Assembly (NCBI RefSeq): GCF_014773545.1
Contig: NZ_SDDV01000002.1
Location: 186,001-250,000, forward strand
DNA: 64,000 nucleotides
Source: Hydrogenophaga sp.
GTDB lineage: Bacteria; Pseudomonadota; Gammaproteobacteria; Burkholderiales; Burkholderiaceae_C
Reading direction: 5' to 3'
The stretch's first letter is position 1; each line of letters begins with the position of its first letter. Position numbers and translations under genes: made by a program. This document shows, in pieces, positions 52 to 56,647 of this stretch. The notes under the pieces were generated by a model. The model was not told where the DNA came from. It saw only the letters and a list, made by a program, of their open reading frames with translations, and did no database searches.

Positions 52-852
52 ATGAAGCGCGGCATCGCGCCACCCGCCAGCAGTTCTGAGCCGACGCGGG
101 CGCGACCGACTTTCCCGGTGCGGCTGGCGCCCATGAGCAGTAACGCATCGGTCAAACAGCCCGCCAGCGCGCCCGCGCTGCGGTCAGCGCCGGTGGTGGC
201 CGTTGGCGCCGACGAAGGCCGCGCAGCGCGCATGGCGATGGTGGACAAACTCCAGGCCCAGGGCCTGAGCGACGCGGCGCTGATCGCGGCCTTGCAAAGC
301 GTGCCACGGCACCGCTTCGTCGATTCGGCGCTGGCCAACCAAGCCTACGAGGACACCAGTTTGCCGCTGGGTCTGGGGCAGACCATCTCCAAGCCGAATG
401 TGGTGGCGCGCATGCTGGCGCTGCTGTGCCAGGGCGGCAACCGACCGCTGGGTCGCGTGCTGGAGGTGGGCACCGGGTGCGGCTACCAGGCTGCGCTGTT
501 GAGTCATTTGGCGCAAGAGGTCTACAGCATCGAGCGGCTGCGCGCACTGCATGAGCGTGCGCGCCACAACCTGCGCGCATTGCGCCGGCCCAACTTGCAC
601 CTGCTGCTGGGCGACGGACTGCTGGGCTATGCGGCAGGTGCGCCTTACGCCGCCATCATCGTTGCCGCCGGCGGTCCTGAGCTGGCGCCGGCCTGGATCG
701 ACCAGTTGGCGCCGGGTGGTCGGCTGGTGGCGCCGCTGGAGGGTCAGGCGCAGCGCCAGCGGCTGGTGGTGATAGACAAAACCGCCAGCGGCGTGCGCCG
801 CACCGAACTCGAAGCGGTGCTGTTCGTTCCGATAAAATCGGGCGTCGAGTAA
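52..852 (+). CDS. pcm: Protein-L-isoaspartate O-methyltransferase
   Basis: ORF with SAM-binding motif VLEVGTGCGYQAALLS and SLPLGLGQTISKPNVVARML, typical of PCMT; followed by a NlpD-like gene. Exact start uncertain. Confidence 0.92.
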   Translation: MKRGIAPPASSSEPTRARPTFPVRLAPMSSNASVKQPASAPALRSAPVVAVGADEGRAARMAMVDKLQAQGLSDAALIAALQSVPRHRFVDSALANQAYEDTSLPLGLGQTISKPNVVARMLALLCQGGNRPLGRVLEVGTGCGYQAALLSHLAQEVYSIERLRALHERARHNLRALRRPNLHLLLGDGLLGYAAGAPYAAIIVAAGGPELAPAWIDQLAPGGRLVAPLEGQAQRQRLVVIDKTASGVRRTELEAVLFVPIKSGVE

Positions 853-930
853 GGCGCTGCGCGCTCCCTGCTGCTTCATAATCGGGGGCATATCGGCGCC
901 GTTCCTGGCCTTGAAACACACTGGGATTTT

Positions 931-1860
931 TTGATGCGTGTTGATTCGAACGTCTTGCCGCAACGCTTGAGCGCGGGTGTGCGCGTCGCCGCTGGACGCG
1001 GCCCCCTGGTCTTGCTGCTGCTCGGGGCTTTGCTGCTCACGGCGGGCTGCTCAACCCGGCGCGTGGCGGCGCCGGCTCCGGTGGAAGACCGATCGGCCCC
1101 GCGCCCGGCCGAGGCCCGGGCGCAGCCCGGGGCTGAGGCCAGAGCACTGCCTGGAGCGGAAAACGAGGGCCGACCCGGTTACTACACCGTGCGTCCAGGC
1201 GATACCCTGATTCGCATCGGGCTCGAGACCGGCCAGAGCTGGCGCGACCTGCAGGCCTGGAACAACCTGGGCAACCCGAATCTGATCGAAGTCGGCCAGG
1301 TGCTGCGCGTCGTGCCGCCGCTGGTGCCGGTGTTCGTGACCGCTGCTGCGCCACCTCCGGCTGGCGCTGCCAGCCCCAGCCCGGTGCTGCCGCCGGCTGC
1401 CACGCCGCGGCCCTTGGCCCAGACGGGCGCCCCGGCGCCGGCCACACCTGCCACACCCACAGCAGCCGCAGCAGCCACGCCTGCCGCGGCAGATGAAATC
1501 AACCTGATCTGGCCGGCGCAGGGCGAGGTGATCTCGGTTTTTGACGAGGTCAGGAACAAGGGCATTGCGATCGCCGGGCGCCTGGGTGAGCCGGTGTTGG
1601 CCGCCGCCGCCGGGCGGGTGGTGTACGCCGGGGCCGGACTGCGCGGCTACGGCAACCTGATCATCCTCAAGCACGACAACACCTTCTTGACCGCCTACGC
1701 GCACAACCAGGCGCTGCTGGTGCGCGAAGACCAGGTGGTGCGTCAGGGGCAGCGCATTGCTGAAATGGGCAGCAGCGACGCAGACCGGGTCAAGCTGCAT
1801 TTCGAGCTGCGCCGCCAGGGCCGACCGGTCGATCCGCTTGCTTTCCTGCCGCGGCGCTGA
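931..1860 (+). CDS. nlpD: NlpD-like lipoprotein, LysM + M23 peptidase domain
   Basis: Lipobox-like LLLTAGCS, LysM YYTVRPGDTLIRIGLETGQSWRDLQAWNNL, C-terminal M23 fold GRVVYAGAGLRGYGNLIILKH; adjacent to pcm. Confidence 0.9.
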   Translation: MMRVDSNVLPQRLSAGVRVAAGRGPLVLLLLGALLLTAGCSTRRVAAPAPVEDRSAPRPAEARAQPGAEARALPGAENEGRPGYYTVRPGDTLIRIGLETGQSWRDLQAWNNLGNPNLIEVGQVLRVVPPLVPVFVTAAAPPPAGAASPSPVLPPAATPRPLAQTGAPAPATPATPTAAAAATPAAADEINLIWPAQGEVISVFDEVRNKGIAIAGRLGEPVLAAAAGRVVYAGAGLRGYGNLIILKHDNTFLTAYAHNQALLVREDQVVRQGQRIAEMGSSDADRVKLHFELRRQGRPVDPLAFLPRR

Positions 1861-1922
1861 AGCCGCAGCACCCGCGAGCGAGCAGCGGCCCACGCGACAA
1901 GACTTGTCCAAGCACCGGCACC

Positions 1923-2705
1923 ATGGCTGCCGTCCTGGTTTTTGACCTCGAGTCGATCCCCGACATCGCCGGCCTGCGCGCCGTGCGCGGCGCGGCGCCC
2001 GAGTGTTCCGACGCCCAGGTCTATCAAGACTGGTTGAGCGAGCGCCAGGCCAAAGGCCAGAGTGACTTCATGCCGCTGCACCTGCAGCGCGTGCTGGTCA
2101 TCAGTTGCGCGTTTCGCAGCGCCGATGGCCTGCGCGTGCACTCCTTCGTCGACCGCGACGGCCGCAGTGAAGGCAAGGTGGTGCAGTCTTTCTTTCAGGC
2201 GGTGGAAAAACACACGCCGCAACTGGTGAGCTGGAACGGCAGCGGCTTTGACCTGCCGGTGCTGCACTACCGCGGCCTGCGCCACGGCGTGCAGGCCAGC
2301 ACCTACTGGGACATGGGCGAGGACAACCGCGACTTCAAGTGGAACAATTACATCGGCCGCTACCACACGCGCCATCTGGACTTGATGGACTTGCTGGCCT
2401 TGTACAGCCCGAAGAACAACGCCCCGCTCGACGCCCTGGCCAAGCTGTGCGGTTTTCCCGGCAAACTCGGCATGGACGGCGCGCAGGTCTTTGCCCAGTA
2501 TCAGGCCGGGCAGTTGGAGGACATTCGCCGCTACTGCGAGACCGACGTGATGAACACCTACTTGCTGTACTGCCGCTTTCAGCGCATGCGCGGCGGTTTG
2601 TCCGAGGCCGAGTACGCGCAGGAAATCGACCTGGTCAGATCCACCTTGGGTCAATGGGCAGCGGATGAAGCGCACTGGGATGAATACTTGCGCGCATGGG
2701 CCTGA
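1923..2705 (+). CDS. Predicted 3'-5' exonuclease, PolB-like family
   Basis: VLVFDLESIPD exonuclease motif and SWNGSGFDLPVLHYRG; YCETDVMNTYLLY third motif. Confidence 0.85.
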   Translation: MAAVLVFDLESIPDIAGLRAVRGAAPECSDAQVYQDWLSERQAKGQSDFMPLHLQRVLVISCAFRSADGLRVHSFVDRDGRSEGKVVQSFFQAVEKHTPQLVSWNGSGFDLPVLHYRGLRHGVQASTYWDMGEDNRDFKWNNYIGRYHTRHLDLMDLLALYSPKNNAPLDALAKLCGFPGKLGMDGAQVFAQYQAGQLEDIRRYCETDVMNTYLLYCRFQRMRGGLSEAEYAQEIDLVRSTLGQWAADEAHWDEYLRAWA

Positions 2706-2736
2706 ACCACGCGGGCCGGGCTGAGACAATCCGGAC

Positions 2737-4200
2737 ATGACCGCATCTTCATCGCACGAAAACAGCCTGCTCACCAGCGCTTGCGCCACGGCACCCGCCG
2801 ACAGCCTTTGCAGCCCTGTATCCAGTGACTGGCTGGTGGTGCAGTCGCTTGACATCGACGCCCAGGGCATTGCACGCCGACCCGACGGCAAGGTGGTGTT
2901 CATCGAAGGCGCGCTGCCGTCCGAGTGGGTCAGCGTGCAGGTGCAGCGCAAGAAGAACAACTGGGAAGCCGGCACCGTGAGCGCGATTCACCGCGCTTCG
3001 GCGCAGCGCGTACAGCCCGGCTGCGCGCACTTTGGCCTGCATGTCGGTGCCTGTGGCGGCTGCAAAATGCAGCACCTCGACGCCACTGCCCAGGTGGCGG
3101 TGAAACAGCGCGTGCTGGAAGACAATCTCTGGCACCTGGCCAAGGTCAAGGCCGAGACCGTGTTGCGACCGATCGAGGGGCCGGTCTGGGGCTACCGCTA
3201 CCGCGCACGCCTGTCGGTGCGTCACGTGCACAAGAAGGGCGAGGTGTTGATCGGTTTTCATGAGCGCAAGAGCCGCTACGTGGCCGATATACGGGCCTGC
3301 CCGGTACTGCCGCCGCAGGTCAGCGCGCTGTTGCTGCCCTTGCGCGCCCTCGTGCACAGCATGGACGCGCGCGCCACCTGTCCGCAGATCGAACTCGCTT
3401 GCGGTGACGCGCTCATTGCCTTGGTGCTGCGCCATCTCGAACCCTTGTCTGACGACGATCTGGCCCGTTTGCGCGCTTTCGCCGTTCAACACGAGGTGCA
3501 GTGGTGGTTGCAGGCGCAGGGGCCGCAGACGGTCAGACTGCTTGATCAGGGCGGCGCTTCATTGTCCTACACGCTGCCGGAGTTCGGCATCCAGATGCCG
3601 TTTCGACCGACCGACTTCACCCAGGTCAACCCCTACATCAACCGCGTGCTGGTCGCGCGTGCGCTGCGCCTGCTGGGCGCGCAAAAAACCGAGCGCGTGA
3701 TCGACTGGTTTTGCGGCTTGGGCAATTTCACCCTGCCGCTGGCCACCCAGGCCGGCGCGGTGCTGGGCATCGAGGGCAGCGAAGCGCTGGTGGCGCGTGC
3801 GCGCGAGAACTACAGCCTGAATCAGACCGTACGGCCTGATCCCTTGTGTGGCACGCAGTTCGCTGCGCGCAACCTGTTCGACATCACAGCGGCTCAGTTG
3901 CGCGCCGACGGTGTGGCGCACAAATGGTTGGTCGATCCGCCGCGCGAAGGCGCGTTTGCACTCGTCAAAGCGCTGGCCGAGTTGCACCAGCAGCCTGAAC
4001 TGCGCGGCGACTGGCAAGCGCCGCAGCGCATTGTTTACGTCAGTTGCAACCCGGCCACGCTGGCGCGCGACGCCGGCTTGCTGGTGCACCAGGCCGGCTA
4101 CAACTGCGTTGGCGCCGGGGTGGTGAACATGTTTGCCCACACCGCCCACGTCGAGAGCCTGGCGGTGTTCGAGCGCAGCGCCGCAACAGCACCAAGCTGA
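2737..4200 (+). CDS. rlmD: 23S rRNA (uracil(1939)-C(5))-methyltransferase
   Basis: TRAM-like N-terminus, Fe-S cysteines [43 protein letters not shown]. Confidence 0.93.
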
Positions 4201-28219: not shown

Positions 28220-28240
28220 AATTGGGGTCAGATTCCGATT
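28220..28240 (+). repeat. Dispersed GGGGTCAGATTCC-type repeat, copy A
   Basis: AATTGGGGTCAGATTCCGATT between convergent trkH and the Fe-S reductase gene; related copies at 44516-44534, 53122-53140 and 53166-53186. Confidence 0.75.
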
Positions 28241-29270
28241 ATTTCTGATCCGCCGCGCTGGTGAAGGCGTCGGCAAAGAAATCGTCTTTGGGCAGGCCGG
28301 CTTGGGCCACGAAGTCGGTGCGCGCCGAATCGACCACGATAGGCGCACCGCAGGCGTAGACCTGGTGGCCGCTGAGGTCGGGGAAGTCTTGCAGCACGGC
28401 GTGATGCACGAAGCCGCTGCGCCCGTCCCAGCCGTCCTCTGGCAGCGCGTCTGACACCACCGGTACGAATTTCAGGCTGGGCAGCAAGGCCTGCTGCTCG
28501 CGTACCCAGTCGCTCTGATACAGATCGGCCGGGCGGCGTGCGCCCCAGTACAGCGTCACCGGGCGGCGGCTGCCCAGGTGCAGCAGGTGCTGCACAATGG
28601 CCTTCATCGGTGCAAAACCGGTGCCAGAGGCGAGCAAAATCACTGGCTTGTCGCTGTCTTCGCGCAGAAAAAAACTGCCGTAAGGGCCTTCGATGCGAAG
28701 TATGTCTTTCTCTTTCAGCGCATTGAAGGCGTGCTCGGTAAACAGGCCGCCGGGCATGTGGCGCAGGTGCAGCTCGATGCTGGGTTGCAGCTCCTGGGTG
28801 TGCGGCGCGTTGGCGATCGAGTAGCTGCGACGCACACCGTCGCGCAGCAGAAAATCGACGTACTGGCCGGCCAGATACTGAAAGCGTTCGGCCGCCGGCA
28901 GTTGCAGGCGCAGCAGCAGCACGTCGCTGGCGGCGCGCTCGATCGCGCTCACGCGCACCGGCATTTTCTTGATCGGCAAGGCACCCGCCTGGCTGACCTG
29001 GCGTGCCTCGATCACCAGGTCGCTGTGCGCCAGCGCGCTGCAAGTCAGCACCCAGCCCTTGGCTTCTTCCTCGGCACTCAGCGCCTTGCTCTGGTGCGGG
29101 CCGTGCAGCACCCGGCCGCTGAGCAGCTTGCATTTGCATGAGCCACAGGCGCCGTCTTTGCAGCCGTAGGGCAGGCCGACGCCCTGGCGGATGCCGGCAG
29201 CGAGCAGGGTTTCTTCGGGCTCGGCGTTGAAGCTGCGCCCGCTGGGCAAGACGGTGATGGTGAATGTCAT
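28239..29270 (-). CDS. 2Fe-2S ferredoxin-NAD(P)H reductase (CDP-6-deoxy-delta-3,4-glucoseen reductase-like)
   Basis: PYGCKDGACGSCKCKLLSGRV Fe-S ligands; RSYSIANAPH FAD site; LLASGTGFAPMKAIVQHLL NAD site. Confidence 0.92.
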   Translation of the reverse strand: MTFTITVLPSGRSFNAEPEETLLAAGIRQGVGLPYGCKDGACGSCKCKLLSGRVLHGPHQSKALSAEEEAKGWVLTCSALAHSDLVIEARQVSQAGALPIKKMPVRVSAIERAASDVLLLRLQLPAAERFQYLAGQYVDFLLRDGVRRSYSIANAPHTQELQPSIELHLRHMPGGLFTEHAFNALKEKDILRIEGPYGSFFLREDSDKPVILLASGTGFAPMKAIVQHLLHLGSRRPVTLYWGARRPADLYQSDWVREQQALLPSLKFVPVVSDALPEDGWDGRSGFVHHAVLQDFPDLSGHQVYACGAPIVVDSARTDFVAQAGLPKDDFFADAFTSAADQK

Positions 29271-44515: not shown

Positions 44516-44534
44516 GAAATTGGAATCTGACCCC
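44516..44534 (-). repeat. Dispersed GGGGTCAGATTCC-type repeat, copy B
   Basis: GAAATTGGAATCTGACCCC is the exact reverse complement of 53122-53140. Confidence 0.85.
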
Positions 44535-45734
44535 CATTACATTCAGCCGCTGCTTGACCTGGCGCCGCTCGCCCGCCTGATGCTGCTGGGTGTGCTGCTT
44601 GCGCTGCTGCCGCTGGTCTGGGTCTGGCTGCGCAGCCGCAGCGCCACACCCGCACATCGCCTGCGCGTGCTGACCCTGGTGACCTTGTTCCTCACTTTCG
44701 ATCTGGTGTTGTTCGGCGCTTTCACCCGCCTGAGCGATTCCGGTCTGGGTTGCCCGGATTGGCCAGGCTGCTATGGCAGCGTCAGCCCGTTGGGAGCGAG
44801 TGCCTCGATTGCCGCTGCGCAGGCGGCCCTGCCCAGCGGCCCGGTCACGTTCTCCAAGGCCTGGGTCGAGATGATTCACCGCTACTTTGCCACCACCGTG
44901 GGGGTGCTGATTCTGGTGCTGGCCAGTGTGAGCTGGCTTGAGCGGCGGCGGCTGGCGGTGTCGTTCTGGTGGCCGCTGCTGACCCTGGTCTGGGTTTGTG
45001 TGCAGGGCGCGTTTGGCGCCCTGACCGTAACCATGCAGTTGTTTCCCGCCATGGTTACGCTGCATCTGCTGGGCGGTCTGGCGCTGCTGGCCTTGCTGCG
45101 CGCGCAAGCGGTCGGTTACGCGCTGGCCGCGCCTGGGCGGCCGCAGTCGGCGCCGGTTGATCCGGGCACGCGTCGCGCCCTGTGGCTGGTATTTGCGCTG
45201 CTGTGGGTGCAGATTGCGCTGGGCGGCTGGGTCAGTACCAATAATGCAGTGCTGGTGTGCAGCGATTTCCCGACCTGCCAAGGCAGTTGGTGGCCGCCGA
45301 TGGACTTTCAGCACGGCTTTAGCCTGTGGCGAGAGCTCGGCATGACCGCCACGGGCGAGCTGTTGCCCTTTCCTGCGCTCACCGCCATTCATTACGTGCA
45401 CCGGCTGGCCGCTTATGTGCTGCTGGCGGCGCTGTTCTGGCTCGCTTGGCGCCTGTGGTTCGTGCCGGGCCTGCGCAACAGCGGGCGTGGCGTGCTGGCG
45501 CTGGCGCTGTGGCAGTTGTTCAGCGGTCTGAGCACCGTGGTGCTGGATTGGCCGCTGCTGGCGGCGCTGGCGCACACCGGTGGAGCGGCGGCACTCGTCA
45601 TTGTCCTGACCGGTGCCTTGTGCGTCAGCCAGCTGGCGCAGGCGCGCCAGCCGGACCGGCGCCTGCATTCTTTTGCCCCAACGGCCGTGCCGCCCGACGG
45701 CCCTGCCGCACAGCAGCCTACGCCTGTCTTATGA
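44520..45734 (+). CDS. ctaA: Heme A synthase (COX15/CtaA)
   Basis: [58 protein letters not shown]. Start is TTG 44520 or ATG 44580. Confidence 0.95.
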
Positions 45735-50548: not shown

Positions 50549-53500
50549 ATGTCCGACGCCGCCACCCCCGCCAATTCCAGCCCGGTCGCATCGACTGCCG
50601 CTGATCCGGGTCGGCAAAGCGCTGGCGGTGCGGGCCTGATCCGTATTCGGGGTGCGCGCCAGCACAACCTGAAAAACATCGACCTCGACATCCGCACCGG
50701 CGAGTTCACGGTCGTTACCGGCCCGAGCGGCTCGGGCAAATCGAGTCTGGTGTTTGACACCTTGTTCGCCGAAGGCCAGCGCCGCTACGTCGAAACCTTC
50801 AGCGCCTACGCGCGCCAGTTTCTCGACCGCATGGACAGGCCGGCAGTGGACCGGGTCGATTTCGTTCCGCCCGCGATTGCCATCGATCAGACCAACCCGG
50901 TGCGCAACTCGCGCTCGACGGTCGGCACCATGAGCGAGCTGAACGACCACCTCAAACTGCTGTTTGCGCGCGGCGCCGAGCTGTTCGACCGCGCCAGCGC
51001 GCTGCCGGTGCGGCACGACTCGCCGGCCTCGATTTACGCCGCATTGCAGCAGCGCAGCCAGGCCCAGGGCGACCCGCGCCTGGTGTTTACGTTTGCGGTG
51101 GAAGTGCCCGCTGGCAGCACGGCAGAAGAAATCGAGCAGTGGCTCTCGGCCAGCGGCTACACCCGGGTGCAGGCCAGGCGGCTGTTGCAGCGCGCGCCCT
51201 TGCCGTCGGACGCTGCGCCGTCTGGCAAGGCGGGCCGGGTCAAGCCCGGCACCGCAGCGCCGCCCACCATGACGGTGCACGTGCTAGACGTGGTGGCGGA
51301 CCGCTTGCGCCTGGGCAGTGCCGAGCCGGCGCGGGTGCTGGAAGCGATTGAAGTGGCGCTCAAGCGCGGCGCTGGCACGCTGCGGGTGGTTGCCGAGTCT
51401 GCTGCCAACGCCGAAGCACAGGTTTGGCTTTTTTCCACCGGCCTGCATTGTCCGCACAGCGACATTCGCTACGCCGAGCCGACGCCGTCGATGTTTTCCT
51501 TCAACTCGGCGCTGGGCGCGTGCGAAACCTGCCGCGGCTTTGGGCGCGTGATCGGGGTCGACTACGGGCTGGTGATCCCGAACGGCCACCTGAGCCTGCG
51601 CGCCGGCGCGGTCAAGGTGTTTCAGACCCCAGCCTGGCAGGAGTGTCAGGACGACTTGATGCGCCACGCCGAAGCGGCCGCCATCCCGCGCGACACGCCC
51701 TGGAACAAACTCACGCCCGAGCAGCAGCACTGGGTCAAGACCGGCGCGCCAGACTGGCGCGGCCAATGGAAGCAGCAGTGGTTTGGCATCGAGCGATTTT
51801 TCGAGTACCTGGAGAGCAAGGCCTACAAGATGCACATTCGTGTGCTCTTGTCCAAGTACCGCAGCTACACCGAATGCCCGAGCTGCGGCGGCGCGCGCTT
51901 GAAAACCGACAGCCTGCTCTGGCGTCTGGGCAATAAAGCGCAGGCCGACGCCGTGCTGGCGCCCGAGCAGCGATTCATGCCTGCGGGTGTGGCCTGGAGC
52001 CGGGCGCAACTGCAAGCCTTGCCCGGCTTGTGCCTGCACGACTTGATGCGTCTGCCGCTGGAGCGCTTGCGCCGTTTCTTTTCCAGCCTGGCCCCGCTGC
52101 CCCACAGCGCCGCTGCGGGGCAGCAGCAAGCGCTCAAGCTGCTGTTTGACGAAATCAACACCCGCATCCGCTACCTGTGCGAGGTCGGCATTGGCTACCT
52201 CACGCTGGATCGGCAAAGCCGAACCCTCTCGGGCGGCGAGGTGCAGCGCATCAACCTGACCACCGCCTTGGGCACGTCGCTGGTCAACACCTTGTTCGTG
52301 CTCGACGAGCCCAGCATCGGGCTGCATCCGCGCGACATGGCGCGCATCACCGCCGCCATGCTGCGGCTGCGCGACGCCGGCAACACCCTGGTGGTGGTGG
52401 AGCACGACCCGGCTGTGATGCTGGCCGCCGATCGGCTGATCGACATGGGGCCCGGGCCGGGCGAGCGCGGCGGCCAGATCGTTTTCGATGGCCCCCCCGA
52501 GGCGGTGCGCCACGCCGACACCCTGACCGGCGCCTACCTGGGCGCGCGCAAGCACGTCGGCATGGGCGTCAAGCGCCACGTCGGCCCGAACACACCGCGC
52601 CTGATTTTGCACGGCGTGCGCGCGCACAACCTGAAAAATCTGACGGTCGAATTTCCGTTGCAGCGCTTGGTTGTGCTGACCGGCGTATCGGGCTCGGGCA
52701 AGTCCAGCCTGCTGCAAGACGTGCTGGCACCGGCCCTGTGGCGCCACTTTGGCCAGCCGACCGACAGCCCGGGTGCTTTTGACCACCTGCTGGGTGCCGA
52801 GCAGTTGAGCGCGCTGGTGTTCGTCGACCAGTCACCGATCGGCAAAACCGCACGCTCAAGTCCGGTCAGTTACGTGGGCGCCTGGGACGCCATTCGCGCC
52901 TTGTTCGCTGGCACGCCGCTGGCGCGCCAGCGCGGCTACACGGCGACCAAGTTCAGCTTCAACAGCGGCGACGGCCGCTGCCCGAGCTGCAGCGGCAGCG
53001 GCTTCGAACACGTGGAAATGCAGTTCCTGAGCGACGTCTACCTGCGCTGCCCAGATTGCGACGGCAAACGCTACCGGCCCGAGATTCTGGAAGTGAAGAT
53101 CGAGAAAGCGGAGGAGAAATCGGGGTCAGATTCCAATTTCAAAGCCCACGCAGCCTTGTCGTCTGAATCGGGGTCTGACCCCGATTTTTTGGACCCCGAT
53201 TTTTTGGCGCTGCGGCCGTTGAATGTGGCCGACGTGCTCGACCTCACCGTGAGCGAGGCCGTGCGCTGGTTTGCCCATGAACGCGAGGTCGTTCGAGCGC
53301 TGCAGCCCATCGTCGACGTCGGGCTGGAGTACCTCAAGCTCGGCCAGCCTGTTCCCACCTTGTCAGGGGGCGAGGCGCAGCGCTTGAAGTTGGCTGGTTT
53401 TCTGGCCGAGGCGGCGCGCAAGGCCAGCGCCAGCCGGCAGCCGCTGGCGCGCAAAGGCACGCTGTTTTTGTTCGACGAACCGACCACCGGCCTGCACTTC

Positions 53501-56500
53501 GACGATATCGCCAAGCTGATGCGTTCGCTGCGCAAACTGCTGGACGCCGGACATTCGCTGGTGCTGATCGAGCACAACCTGGACGTGATCCGCGCCGCCG
53601 ACTGGCTGATCGACCTTGGCCCCGAGGGCGGCGACGCCGGCGGCCAGATCGTCACCGAAGGGCCGCCCGAAGATGTGCGCCAGCACCCCAGCAGCCACAC
53701 CGCCTTGGCGCTGCGCGAGTATGCGCTGTCGGTCGGTGCGCAGCAGCCGGTCCGGGAGCCGCAAGCCGGCACGGACGCCGGGGGTCAAAAACCAGGCGCG
53801 GACGCGCTTGCCCAGACCTGCATTCGCATCGTCAACGCCAAAGAACACAACCTGAAAAACCTCAGCGTGGACATTCCGCGCGGCAAGTTCAACGTCATCT
53901 CCGGCGTCAGCGGCTCGGGCAAGTCGACGCTGGCGTTCGATATTTTGTTCAACGAAGGCCAGCGCCGCTATCTGGAGAGCCTCAACGCCTACGCGCGCAG
54001 CATCGTGCAGCCGGCTGGGCGGCCCGAGGTGGACGCGATCTATGGCCTGGCGCCCACAGTGGCGATCGAGCAGCGTCTGTCGCGCGGGGGCAGCAAAAGC
54101 ACCGTTGGCACCGCCACCGAGGTCTGGCACTTTCTGCGCCTGCTGTTTGTCAAGCTCGGCACCCAGCACTGCGTGCACGACGGTGCGGCGGTGTTGCCGC
54201 AAAGCCAGGACAGCATCGCGGCCGCGATTCTCAGGCGCTACGCTGGCCAGCATATCGGCTTGCTGGCGCCGCTGGTGGTCCACCGCAAGGGCGTCTACAC
54301 CGAGTTGGCCGACTGGGCGCGCCTGCGCGGCCATACGCATGTGCGCGTCGATGGTGAATTTGTGCCCACCAGCGGTTTTGCGCGCCTGGACCGCTTCAAG
54401 GAGCACAGCATCGAGCTGCCGCTGGCCGACTGGGTGGTCAACCCGGCTGACGAGTCCTGGCTGCGCGCACAACTCGCGCAGGCGCTGGAAATCGGCAAAG
54501 GTCAGTTGCAGGTGCTGCACCCGCTCGACGGCTTGGGCCAGGCGCTGGCGCAGGGTTTGCCGACTTGCGGCATCGGGACGGTGGAGGTGTTTTCCAGCAT
54601 CCGCGCCTGTCCGGTCTGCGCCACCAGCTACCCCGAGCTCGACCCGCGTCTGTTTTCCTACAACAGCAAGCACGGCTGGTGCCCGGACTGCGTCGGCACC
54701 GGCATGTTGCTCAGCAGCGAGCAGCGCAAACAACTCGACGATTCGCAGCGCGACGAACAGCAGCGCGGGCGCGAGCAGAGCTTTGCCGAACCCGAGCTGG
54801 CAGAAGAGCTGCAAAAACAGATCTGCCCAAGCTGTGCCGGCACCCGGCTCAAGCCCCAGGCGCGCGCGGTGCGCTTGGCTGGCAGCGCCATTACAGAGTT
54901 GGCGCGCCTGCCGGTGCGTGCGCTGCGGCAGTGGGTGCGCGACCTGATGAACCTGCCCGCGCTGGCCGATCCCGTCCCCGGGCAGGCAGTGGCCCAACCT
55001 GAGTCTGACCCCGCGCCGGCGCAGCAGCGCCAGCCGCTGTCGCTGTCGCCACGCGAGGCCGAGATCGCGCGCGATCTGCTGCCCGAGATCGAGAGCCGGC
55101 TGGCGTTTCTGGACGAAGTGGGCTTGAACTACCTGAGCCTGGATCGCGGTGCACCCACGCTCAGCGGTGGCGAGGCGCAGCGCATCCGGCTGGCGGCGCA
55201 ACTCGGCAGCAAGCTGCAAGGCGTGTGCTACGTGCTCGACGAGCCCACCATCGGCTTGCACGCGCGCGACAACGCGGTTTTACTCGACGCGCTGCAAAAG
55301 CTCGGCGCTGCGGGCAATACGCTGGTGGTGGTCGAGCACGACGAAGACACCATTCGGCGCGCCGATCACATCATCGACATAGGCCCCGGCGCCGGTCGGC
55401 GCGGCGGCCGCGTGGTGGCGCAGGGGTCGGTGGCCGACTTGTGCGCCAGCGCCGAATCGCTCACCGGACGCTACTTGCTGCACGCCATGCGGCATCCTTT
55501 GCAGGCCAGACGAGCGGTGTTGCCAGTTGCCGGCGCAGCGGCGCAGGCCAGGGCGCCGGGCCTGTGCTGGATCGACGTGTGCGCAGCCAACCTGCACAAC
55601 CTGCAGCAGATCGACGTCAGCCTTCCCTTGCAACGCCTGGTGGTTCTCACCGGTGTTTCCGGTTCGGGCAAATCGACGCTGGCGCGCGAGGTGCTGCACG
55701 TCAACCTGGCCGCGGCGGTGGCGCTGCGCAGCCGCGTGGCCGGCCGTGCCGCCTGGGACGCTGGCGAGCGGCCAGCCTGGGTCGGTTGCAGCAAGCTGCT
55801 GGGTGCCGAGGCGGTGCAGCGCGTGCTGGAAGTCGATCAAACCCCGATCGGCAAAACCCCGCGCAGTTGCCCGGCCACCTACATTGGCTTTTGGGATACG
55901 GTGCGCCAACTGTTTGCCGACACGCTGGAGGCGAAGGCGCGCGGCTACGGGCCGGGCCGTTTTTCGTTCAACACCGGCGCCGGCCGCTGTCCAGCCTGCG
56001 AAGGGCAGGGCCTGCGCACCATAGAAATGAGTTTTTTGCCCGACGTCAAGGTGCCGTGCGAGGTCTGCCACGGCGCACGCTTCAACCCCGAGACGCTGGC
56101 CGTGACCTGGAAGGGAAAGCACATCGGCGAGGTGCTGCAGATGGAGGTCGATCAGGCGCTCGACTTCTTTGCCGCCCTCTCCAGCATCCGTCACCCGCTG
56201 CAACTGCTGCAAGACGTCGGACTGGGCTACCTTACGCTGGGCCAGTCCAGCCCCACGCTGTCTGGCGGCGAGGCGCAGCGCATCAAACTGGTGGCCGAGC
56301 TGTCCAAGGTGCAGGGCGATGGCACGTCGCTGCGGCGCGGCCAGCGGCCGCCGCACACGCTTTACCTGCTCGATGAGCCCACGGTCGGCCTGCACATGGC
56401 CGACGTGGAAAAACTCATTCGCGTGCTGCACCGGCTGGTCGACGCGGGCCACAGCCTGGTGGTGATCGAACACGACCTGGACCTGATGGCCGAGGCCGAC

Positions 56501-56647
56501 TGGATCATTGACCTGGGGCCCGAGGGCGGCGACGCCGGCGGACGCGTCGTTGCCGCCGGGCCGCCCGAAGCGGTGGTGCAACAAGGCACGCACACGGGTC
56601 GCGTGCTGGCGGCGCTGCTGGCGCGGGCGCGAGCAGGCCACGGCTGA
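50549..56647 (+). CDS. uvrA: Double-length UvrA-type excinuclease ABC subunit A (2032 aa, two tandem UvrA units)
   Basis: Four Walker A motifs (GPSGSGKSSL, GVSGSGKSSL, GVSGSGKSTL x2) and four LSGGE signatures (LSGGEVQRI, LSGGEAQRL, LSGGEAQRI x2) in one uninterrupted ORF; second unit begins near nt 53816. Confidence 0.96.
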   Translation: MSDAATPANSSPVASTAADPGRQSAGGAGLIRIRGARQHNLKNIDLDIRTGEFTVVTGPSGSGKSSLVFDTLFAEGQRRYVETFSAYARQFLDRMDRPAVDRVDFVPPAIAIDQTNPVRNSRSTVGTMSELNDHLKLLFARGAELFDRASALPVRHDSPASIYAALQQRSQAQGDPRLVFTFAVEVPAGSTAEEIEQWLSASGYTRVQARRLLQRAPLPSDAAPSGKAGRVKPGTAAPPTMTVHVLDVVADRLRLGSAEPARVLEAIEVALKRGAGTLRVVAESAANAEAQVWLFSTGLHCPHSDIRYAEPTPSMFSFNSALGACETCRGFGRVIGVDYGLVIPNGHLSLRAGAVKVFQTPAWQECQDDLMRHAEAAAIPRDTPWNKLTPEQQHWVKTGAPDWRGQWKQQWFGIERFFEYLESKAYKMHIRVLLSKYRSYTECPSCGGARLKTDSLLWRLGNKAQADAVLAPEQRFMPAGVAWSRAQLQALPGLCLHDLMRLPLERLRRFFSSLAPLPHSAAAGQQQALKLLFDEINTRIRYLCEVGIGYLTLDRQSRTLSGGEVQRINLTTALGTSLVNTLFVLDEPSIGLHPRDMARITAAMLRLRDAGNTLVVVEHDPAVMLAADRLIDMGPGPGERGGQIVFDGPPEAVRHADTLTGAYLGARKHVGMGVKRHVGPNTPRLILHGVRAHNLKNLTVEFPLQRLVVLTGVSGSGKSSLLQDVLAPALWRHFGQPTDSPGAFDHLLGAEQLSALVFVDQSPIGKTARSSPVSYVGAWDAIRALFAGTPLARQRGYTATKFSFNSGDGRCPSCSGSGFEHVEMQFLSDVYLRCPDCDGKRYRPEILEVKIEKAEEKSGSDSNFKAHAALSSESGSDPDFLDPDFLALRPLNVADVLDLTVSEAVRWFAHEREVVRALQPIVDVGLEYLKLGQPVPTLSGGEAQRLKLAGFLAEAARKASASRQPLARKGTLFLFDEPTTGLHFDDIAKLMRSLRKLLDAGHSLVLIEHNLDVIRAADWLIDLGPEGGDAGGQIVTEGPPEDVRQHPSSHTALALREYALSVGAQQPVREPQAGTDAGGQKPGADALAQTCIRIVNAKEHNLKNLSVDIPRGKFNVISGVSGSGKSTLAFDILFNEGQRRYLESLNAYARSIVQPAGRPEVDAIYGLAPTVAIEQRLSRGGSKSTVGTATEVWHFLRLLFVKLGTQHCVHDGAAVLPQSQDSIAAAILRRYAGQHIGLLAPLVVHRKGVYTELADWARLRGHTHVRVDGEFVPTSGFARLDRFKEHSIELPLADWVVNPADESWLRAQLAQALEIGKGQLQVLHPLDGLGQALAQGLPTCGIGTVEVFSSIRACPVCATSYPELDPRLFSYNSKHGWCPDCVGTGMLLSSEQRKQLDDSQRDEQQRGREQSFAEPELAEELQKQICPSCAGTRLKPQARAVRLAGSAITELARLPVRALRQWVRDLMNLPALADPVPGQAVAQPESDPAPAQQRQPLSLSPREAEIARDLLPEIESRLAFLDEVGLNYLSLDRGAPTLSGGEAQRIRLAAQLGSKLQGVCYVLDEPTIGLHARDNAVLLDALQKLGAAGNTLVVVEHDEDTIRRADHIIDIGPGAGRRGGRVVAQGSVADLCASAESLTGRYLLHAMRHPLQARRAVLPVAGAAAQARAPGLCWIDVCAANLHNLQQIDVSLPLQRLVVLTGVSGSGKSTLAREVLHVNLAAAVALRSRVAGRAAWDAGERPAWVGCSKLLGAEAVQRVLEVDQTPIGKTPRSCPATYIGFWDTVRQLFADTLEAKARGYGPGRFSFNTGAGRCPACEGQGLRTIEMSFLPDVKVPCEVCHGARFNPETLAVTWKGKHIGEVLQMEVDQALDFFAALSSIRHPLQLLQDVGLGYLTLGQSSPTLSGGEAQRIKLVAELSKVQGDGTSLRRGQRPPHTLYLLDEPTVGLHMADVEKLIRVLHRLVDAGHSLVVIEHDLDLMAEADWIIDLGPEGGDAGGRVVAAGPPEAVVQQGTHTGRVLAALLARARAGHG
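53122..53140 (+). repeat. Dispersed GGGGTCAGATTCC-type repeat, copy C (inside uvrA-like CDS)
   Basis: GGGGTCAGATTCCAATTTC, exact inverted match to 44516-44534. Confidence 0.85.
53166..53207. repeat. Palindromic repeat copy D plus 2x15-bp tandem duplication (inside uvrA-like CDS)
   Basis: AATCGGGGTCtGACCCCGATT palindrome (53166-53186) and ACCCCGATTTTTTGG twice (53178-53192, 53193-53207), encoding DPDFLDPDFL. Confidence 0.9.

Follow-up and report, generated by a model that had tools for sequence, protein, structure and literature searches.

A pair of inverted 21-bp repeats lies in frame within a long uvrA gene of a Hydrogenophaga genome, and it is probable that this pair was spread by a transposase and was kept in frame at a linker of UvrA that tolerates it. 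The gene is located in the window, by which we mean the whole stretch of 64,000 nucleotides that was analysed. The genome is a draft of 19 contigs; the repeat copies in it were tallied from search hits and inspected in the retrieved loci.

The insert in the first UvrA unit

The ORF at positions 50549–56647 (+) encodes a double-length UvrA-type ATPase of 2032 aa that consists of two UvrA units. It scored far above the cut-offs of two family models, with 1848.7 bits against NF001503 (cut-off 1147) and 1833.8 bits against TIGR00630 (cut-off 729.8). The protein is similar to the PRK00635-like dimeric UvrA in having two UvrA units per chain, but it is not an equivalog under NF001885, the model of the PRK00635-like double-length UvrA, where its score of 1039 was below the cut-off of 3054.

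Comparison with orthologs placed an inserted segment at 53102–53218 (+), in the turn between LEVKI and LNVADVLDL of the first unit. The reading frame is open throughout the insert, and its translation is EKAEEKSGSDSNFKAHAALSSESGSDPDFLDPDFLALRP. The spacing from LEV to VADV is 43 residues in the window protein, as compared with 10 residues in 59 of 110 orthologs (drawn from this genus and others) and in 27 of the 29 same-genus orthologs recovered, which corresponds to a net gain of approximately 33 residues. An initial annotation of this DNA had described an in-frame insert that orthologs might lack, and the alignment agrees with it on both points. A segment conserved among orthologs is ruled out, as the insert is missing from most of them. 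By alignment, the insertion point, referred to below as site A, corresponds to a short turn of T. maritima UvrA (PDB 3PIH), between its residues 755 and 758.

The insert holds two repeat units in inverted order, 48 bp from start to start. Unit 1 (53118–53138, +) is the exact consensus AATCGGGGTCAGATTCCAATT and is read as (K)SGSDSN, while its inverted partner, unit 2 (53166–53186, −), is the perfect palindrome AATCGGGGTCTGACCCCGATT and is read as ESGSDPD. A 15-bp tandem duplication, GACCCCGATTTTTTG twice at 53177–53206 (+), copies part of the end of unit 2 and is read as DPDFLDPDFL. The 21-nt palindrome and the duplication had been reported in the initial annotation and were both recovered, together with a 19-mer, GGGGTCAGATTCCAATTTC (53122–53140), that is the exact reverse complement of 44516–44534. 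Folded together, the two units give an 18-bp hairpin (z −4.2). In the protein, the segment would be translated and read as a polar linker. The earlier description of a flexible acidic linker is consistent with its composition and its position in a turn, as judged from the sequence. Structure prediction of a 362-aa UvrA fragment with 28 relatives reached a pLDDT of 40.6, too low for a structural claim.

Other copies of the repeat are present in the window. The intergenic copy seen in the initial annotation lies at 44518–44538 (−) and has one mismatch. A third locus, AATTGGGGTCAGATTCCGATT at 28220–28240 (+), provides on the minus strand the TGA stop (EIIGI*) of the ORF at 28228–29139. A degenerate repeat that had been overlooked is found in the same uvrA at 55000–55012 (−), with one mismatch to the core, where it is read as PESDPAP in an extra linker of the second UvrA unit; some relatives have other repeat-coded inserts at this site. 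When two mismatches were allowed, the window count was 19 against a mean of 14.6 for shuffles, which is no excess, and only the exact core is therefore informative.

The repeat family and its transposase

The core GGGGTCWGANYCC was found at 27 places (30 strand hits) in the 2.21-Mb genome and once in the reversed control, which is the genome-wide enrichment of the motif that the initial annotation had anticipated. The consensus of the 27 aligned copies is the 21-bp sequence of unit 1. GTAG was absent from the base counts of these copies, and the fold of a single consensus unit was no better than that of shuffles (z 0.17). The palindromic variant is the one single unit that does fold (z −4.5), and a repeat pair in cca folds as a hairpin (z −6.2). 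A classical GTAG REP is ruled out because GTAG is lacking and the single consensus unit is not a stable stem-loop. The GGGGTCAG of the collected copies fits the motif GGGGWSAS. The mobile or REP-like element first proposed is supported by the dispersal of the repeat and its link to a transposase gene, with the refinement that it is no classical GTAG REP and matches the TIRYT motif. A literature search on the motif string returned only unrelated papers.

One Y1 transposase gene was found in the whole genome, with 45.8 bits against PF01797 and 83.3 bits against NF047646 REP_Tyr_transpos (cut-off 80). The repeat is located on both sides of this gene in inverted orientation, at 1421 (+) and about 2981 (−) of its locus (L028). 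A 215-aa ORF without a Pfam match (L028 2238–2885) lies between the transposase gene and the downstream repeat. The transposase-flanking repeats of relatives are only about 815–840 bp apart, so that this ORF seems to have arrived later or through a rearrangement. The transposase locus is directly upstream of a gltB-like gene (start MTTAAEQQ) both here and in another genome (G010, L074), and this shared neighbour suggests that the transposase is a vertically inherited, domesticated single-copy gene.

Nearly all same-genus genomes contain one such transposase gene. Of these, 17 also have the repeat (at most two mismatches), and by a hand tally over two tables 15 of the 17 have a copy no more than about 150 bp away from the gene. 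In the taxonomic family as sampled, an exact 17-mer of the repeat was present in 45 of 201 genomes and 36 of 141 genera (control 0). The genome studied here is, at 2.2 Mb, among the smallest sampled of the genus, yet it has the most repeat copies. A high number of repeats may accompany genome reduction, as in Rickettsia.

Recurrent inserts in long UvrA proteins and in other genes

Inserts at site A were also found in other Comamonadaceae. The window's repeat family (GGGGTCAGA) occupies the site in L091, L092, L093, L126, L143, L153, L168 and L332, the last of which has an array of four repeats. The same site holds a TTCGACAGGCTCAG family in L030, L031, L090, L142, L156 and L167, a GAGCGAAGCGAAG family in L119 and L128, and a GCGAGCGTAGCG family in L089. 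On a tree built on the UvrA core, with the insert columns left out, the insert states of site A need 15 changes, where a change may be a gain or a loss. The GGGGTCAGA family has 7 such changes, and well-supported branches force at least 5 of them; for the TTCGACAGGCTCAG family at least 3 of its 4 changes are so forced. In the same tree, the UvrA fragment of one same-genus genome is identical to that of Hydrogenophaga sp. IBVHS1, which makes Hydrogenophaga the probable genus. The inserts are scattered and have differing junctions, which speaks for repeated gain; despite these junctions, SGSD is the starting frame of every GGGGTCAGA insert at the site. The initial annotation had pictured a single entry into a repair gene. 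The absence of the segment from most orthologs agrees with this, and the repeated filling of the same turn by several repeat families refines it, as the event was not an isolated one.

Site A is not the only site in use. At a second UvrA site (about residue 284), six same-genus genomes carry the repeat in nearly identical DNA, and additional insert sites are located near residues 1069, 1480 and 1660. Variable linkers of the UvrA orthologs, at about residues 174, 287, 473, 517, 1071, 1444 and 1658, contain peptides typical of other repeats, namely SGGSEPREAGSVG, GDDLGLPYEEPG and LPLAGEGRGEG. In 25 other genomes of the taxonomic family, 12 of 128 fetched repeat copies were inside the long uvrA, in 5 genomes, as compared with an expectation of about 0.2 from gene length under uniform placement, with the copies of one genome not being independent.

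The recurrence and the strong copy excess in one gene could be the result of a target hotspot, if some DNA feature of these UvrA positions is favoured by the transposase and insertion bias contributes more than survival. This is unlikely in view of the different families that fill the one turn, some of which have no visible link to the transposase, and because junctions and orientation vary between lineages and several sites along uvrA are in use.

The genome studied here has further in-frame repeats in a priA linker, in cca and in a gene for a thiO-like FAD oxidoreductase. In cca, a repeat pair has taken the place of part of the HD region (L019/L199, G000:C13:20449-20517), and the CHDLGKG of relatives has become CHGLARG, so that the HD domain is probably inactive in this genome, as far as the motif indicates. 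A pure insertion is ruled out for cca, where the HD segment was replaced and the motif lost, and also for priA, where a single copy sits in a variable linker and the net length is unchanged. The C-terminus of glyS is extended by a repeat copy, as seen by reading. An integron-integrase-like gene has a repeat pair in its C-terminal part (L018, G000:C12:254004), with homology ending after the pair; this insertion, which lies close to the end of a contig, is a disrupting one. Other copies are intergenic or lie at the ends of genes, where the repeat is able to provide the stop codon.

Unrelated genes also carry repeats (purL-, hslO-, plsC-like and thiO-like). A purL-like ORF (L344 of G232, about 161–3280) contains several in-frame repeat-coded segments, some from the window's repeat family and some with the IARSAATRQS/GLPRFARNDE peptides of another family. 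In L286 of G121, the ORF of a DnaE2-like error-prone polymerase includes a repeat pair in frame (LGSDSN...LESDP). The scan of ORFs for more intragenic copies was filtered by base composition, so its counts are lower bounds. The intragenic copies are mostly in the SGSDSN or ESDPD frame, and some are in the GQIPI or NLTPI frame, which rules out the use of only the SGSD and ESDP frames; the GVRFQ frame was not seen among the intragenic cases read.

The loss of the cca HD segment beside a repeat pair, together with the small genome, would also fit decay, in which the long uvrA is no longer selected against insertions and a single-length uvrA does the work. The genome does have a second, single-length uvrA as a separate gene without a repeat insert (C18:98642-101563). 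The branch of the window protein is the longest in its tree neighbourhood (0.22), and given this branch relaxed constraint on the gene is possible. Nevertheless, decay is about as doubtful as a target hotspot: the 2032-aa ORF is open, the Walker A, signature and zinc-cysteine motifs are all present by reading, identity to same-genus orthologs is 82–86% across the region, and the inserts are in frame in many other species as well.

Origin of the insert and comparison with known systems

For the favoured origin, namely a transposase-spread pair kept at a tolerant linker, the following course is proposed. The 21-bp repeat would belong to the single-copy Y1/HUH-type tyrosine transposase gene as a TIRYT/RAYT-type system, in which the transposase would act on the single-stranded hairpin of inverted pairs and would have spread units through the genome by copying or moving them. 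Both the mobility of the repeat and this mechanism of transposition we infer from sequence features. One pair would have come to lie in the first UvrA unit, in the turn that joins the LEVKI strand to the LNVADVL helix. The insertion would have preserved the frame, as its net length is divisible by three and the repeat unit is free of stops in five of its six frames, and the pair would now be translated. If selection removes out-of-frame or disruptive copies, the intragenic survivors would be in frame and at linkers, and the double-length UvrA, with several permissive linkers, would accumulate copies repeatedly. We infer that the inserts in UvrA are tolerated rather than beneficial.

Di Nocera and colleagues have proposed an adaptive view for REPs in repair genes (PMC3733652). 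If it applied here, the repeat-coded peptides would tune UvrA, for example in mutator states, and would be kept for that. The number of copies in the double-length UvrA far exceeds the length-based expectation, repair and replication genes recur (uvrA and priA here, the DnaE2-like polymerase in L286), and six same-genus genomes keep near-identical repeat DNA at the second UvrA site. However, the inserts at one site vary in sequence, length and repeat family, most relatives are without inserts, and the unrelated genes listed above carry repeats too, all of which fits tolerance. An adaptive role is unproven, and we regard it as slightly less probable than either the hotspot or decay. The same low probability is given to a broader proposal, in which repeat families of several unrelated kinds would enter the same loops of the double-length UvrA of Comamonadaceae. 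This protein would be a favoured site for transposase-linked repeats that is put to functional use, and the resulting disordered peptides would change its activity or its interactions. An assembly or contamination artefact, which a draft of this kind could suggest, is highly improbable because the repeats are flanked by unique UvrA sequence within one long contig and similar inserts are found in independent assemblies, including isolates.

For the question of how mobile repeats turn into protein, site A is an experiment that nature has replicated, with about 15 state changes at one mapped turn, several repeat families involved, and relatives that have the site empty. Insertion preference, tolerance and benefit as causes of the published REP excess in repair genes become testable. 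Coding repeats are also extended from GTAG/CGTC REPs and Rickettsia palindromic elements (RPE) to a TIRYT-type family.

Among the closest known systems are the TIRYT/TIRtron repeats of Di Nocera et al. (2013; PMC3733652). As there, a tyrosine transposase gene of the IS200/Y1 type has flanking inverted repeats, the family is genome-wide with singles and dimers, and, by motif and gene layout, GGGGTCAG fits the TIRYT GGGGWSAS. In contrast, the window family codes inside proteins, and the intragenic copies in the passages compared are GTAG/CGTC repeats. Those REPs form in-frame dimers in uvrA (O. terrae, Thioalkalivibrio) and in other replication and repair genes, with whose published list the DnaE2-like case agrees, and they also provide stop codons, as the repeat does here. 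They differ from it in their GTAG tag. Insertion of REPs at the same site is given in that paper for recB of two Xanthomonas species only, with different sites otherwise, whereas one UvrA turn is filled here by at least four repeat families.

The transposase match to NF047646 REP_Tyr_transpos, the inverted pairs, the folding of two units into one hairpin (in uvrA and cca) and the single-copy transposase with flanking copies are all similar to the REPIN/RAYT system (PMC3116915, PMC8266576). The window repeat differs from it in having no GTAG motif, a unit that is a poor hairpin alone, and fewer copies. The RPE are palindromic repeats in frame inside many genes (PMC10969869, PMC3733652), and the likeness is one of behaviour, that is, in-frame coding; they are about 150 bp, while the window repeat has a unit of 21 bp and is associated with a transposase gene. 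Coding RPEs have already been published, as have REPs inside genes, among them dimers in uvrA. What is apparently new, in the literature searched, is that a TIRYT-type family occurs in frame inside genes and that, in Comamonadaceae, one UvrA turn has been filled repeatedly by four or more families of repeats.
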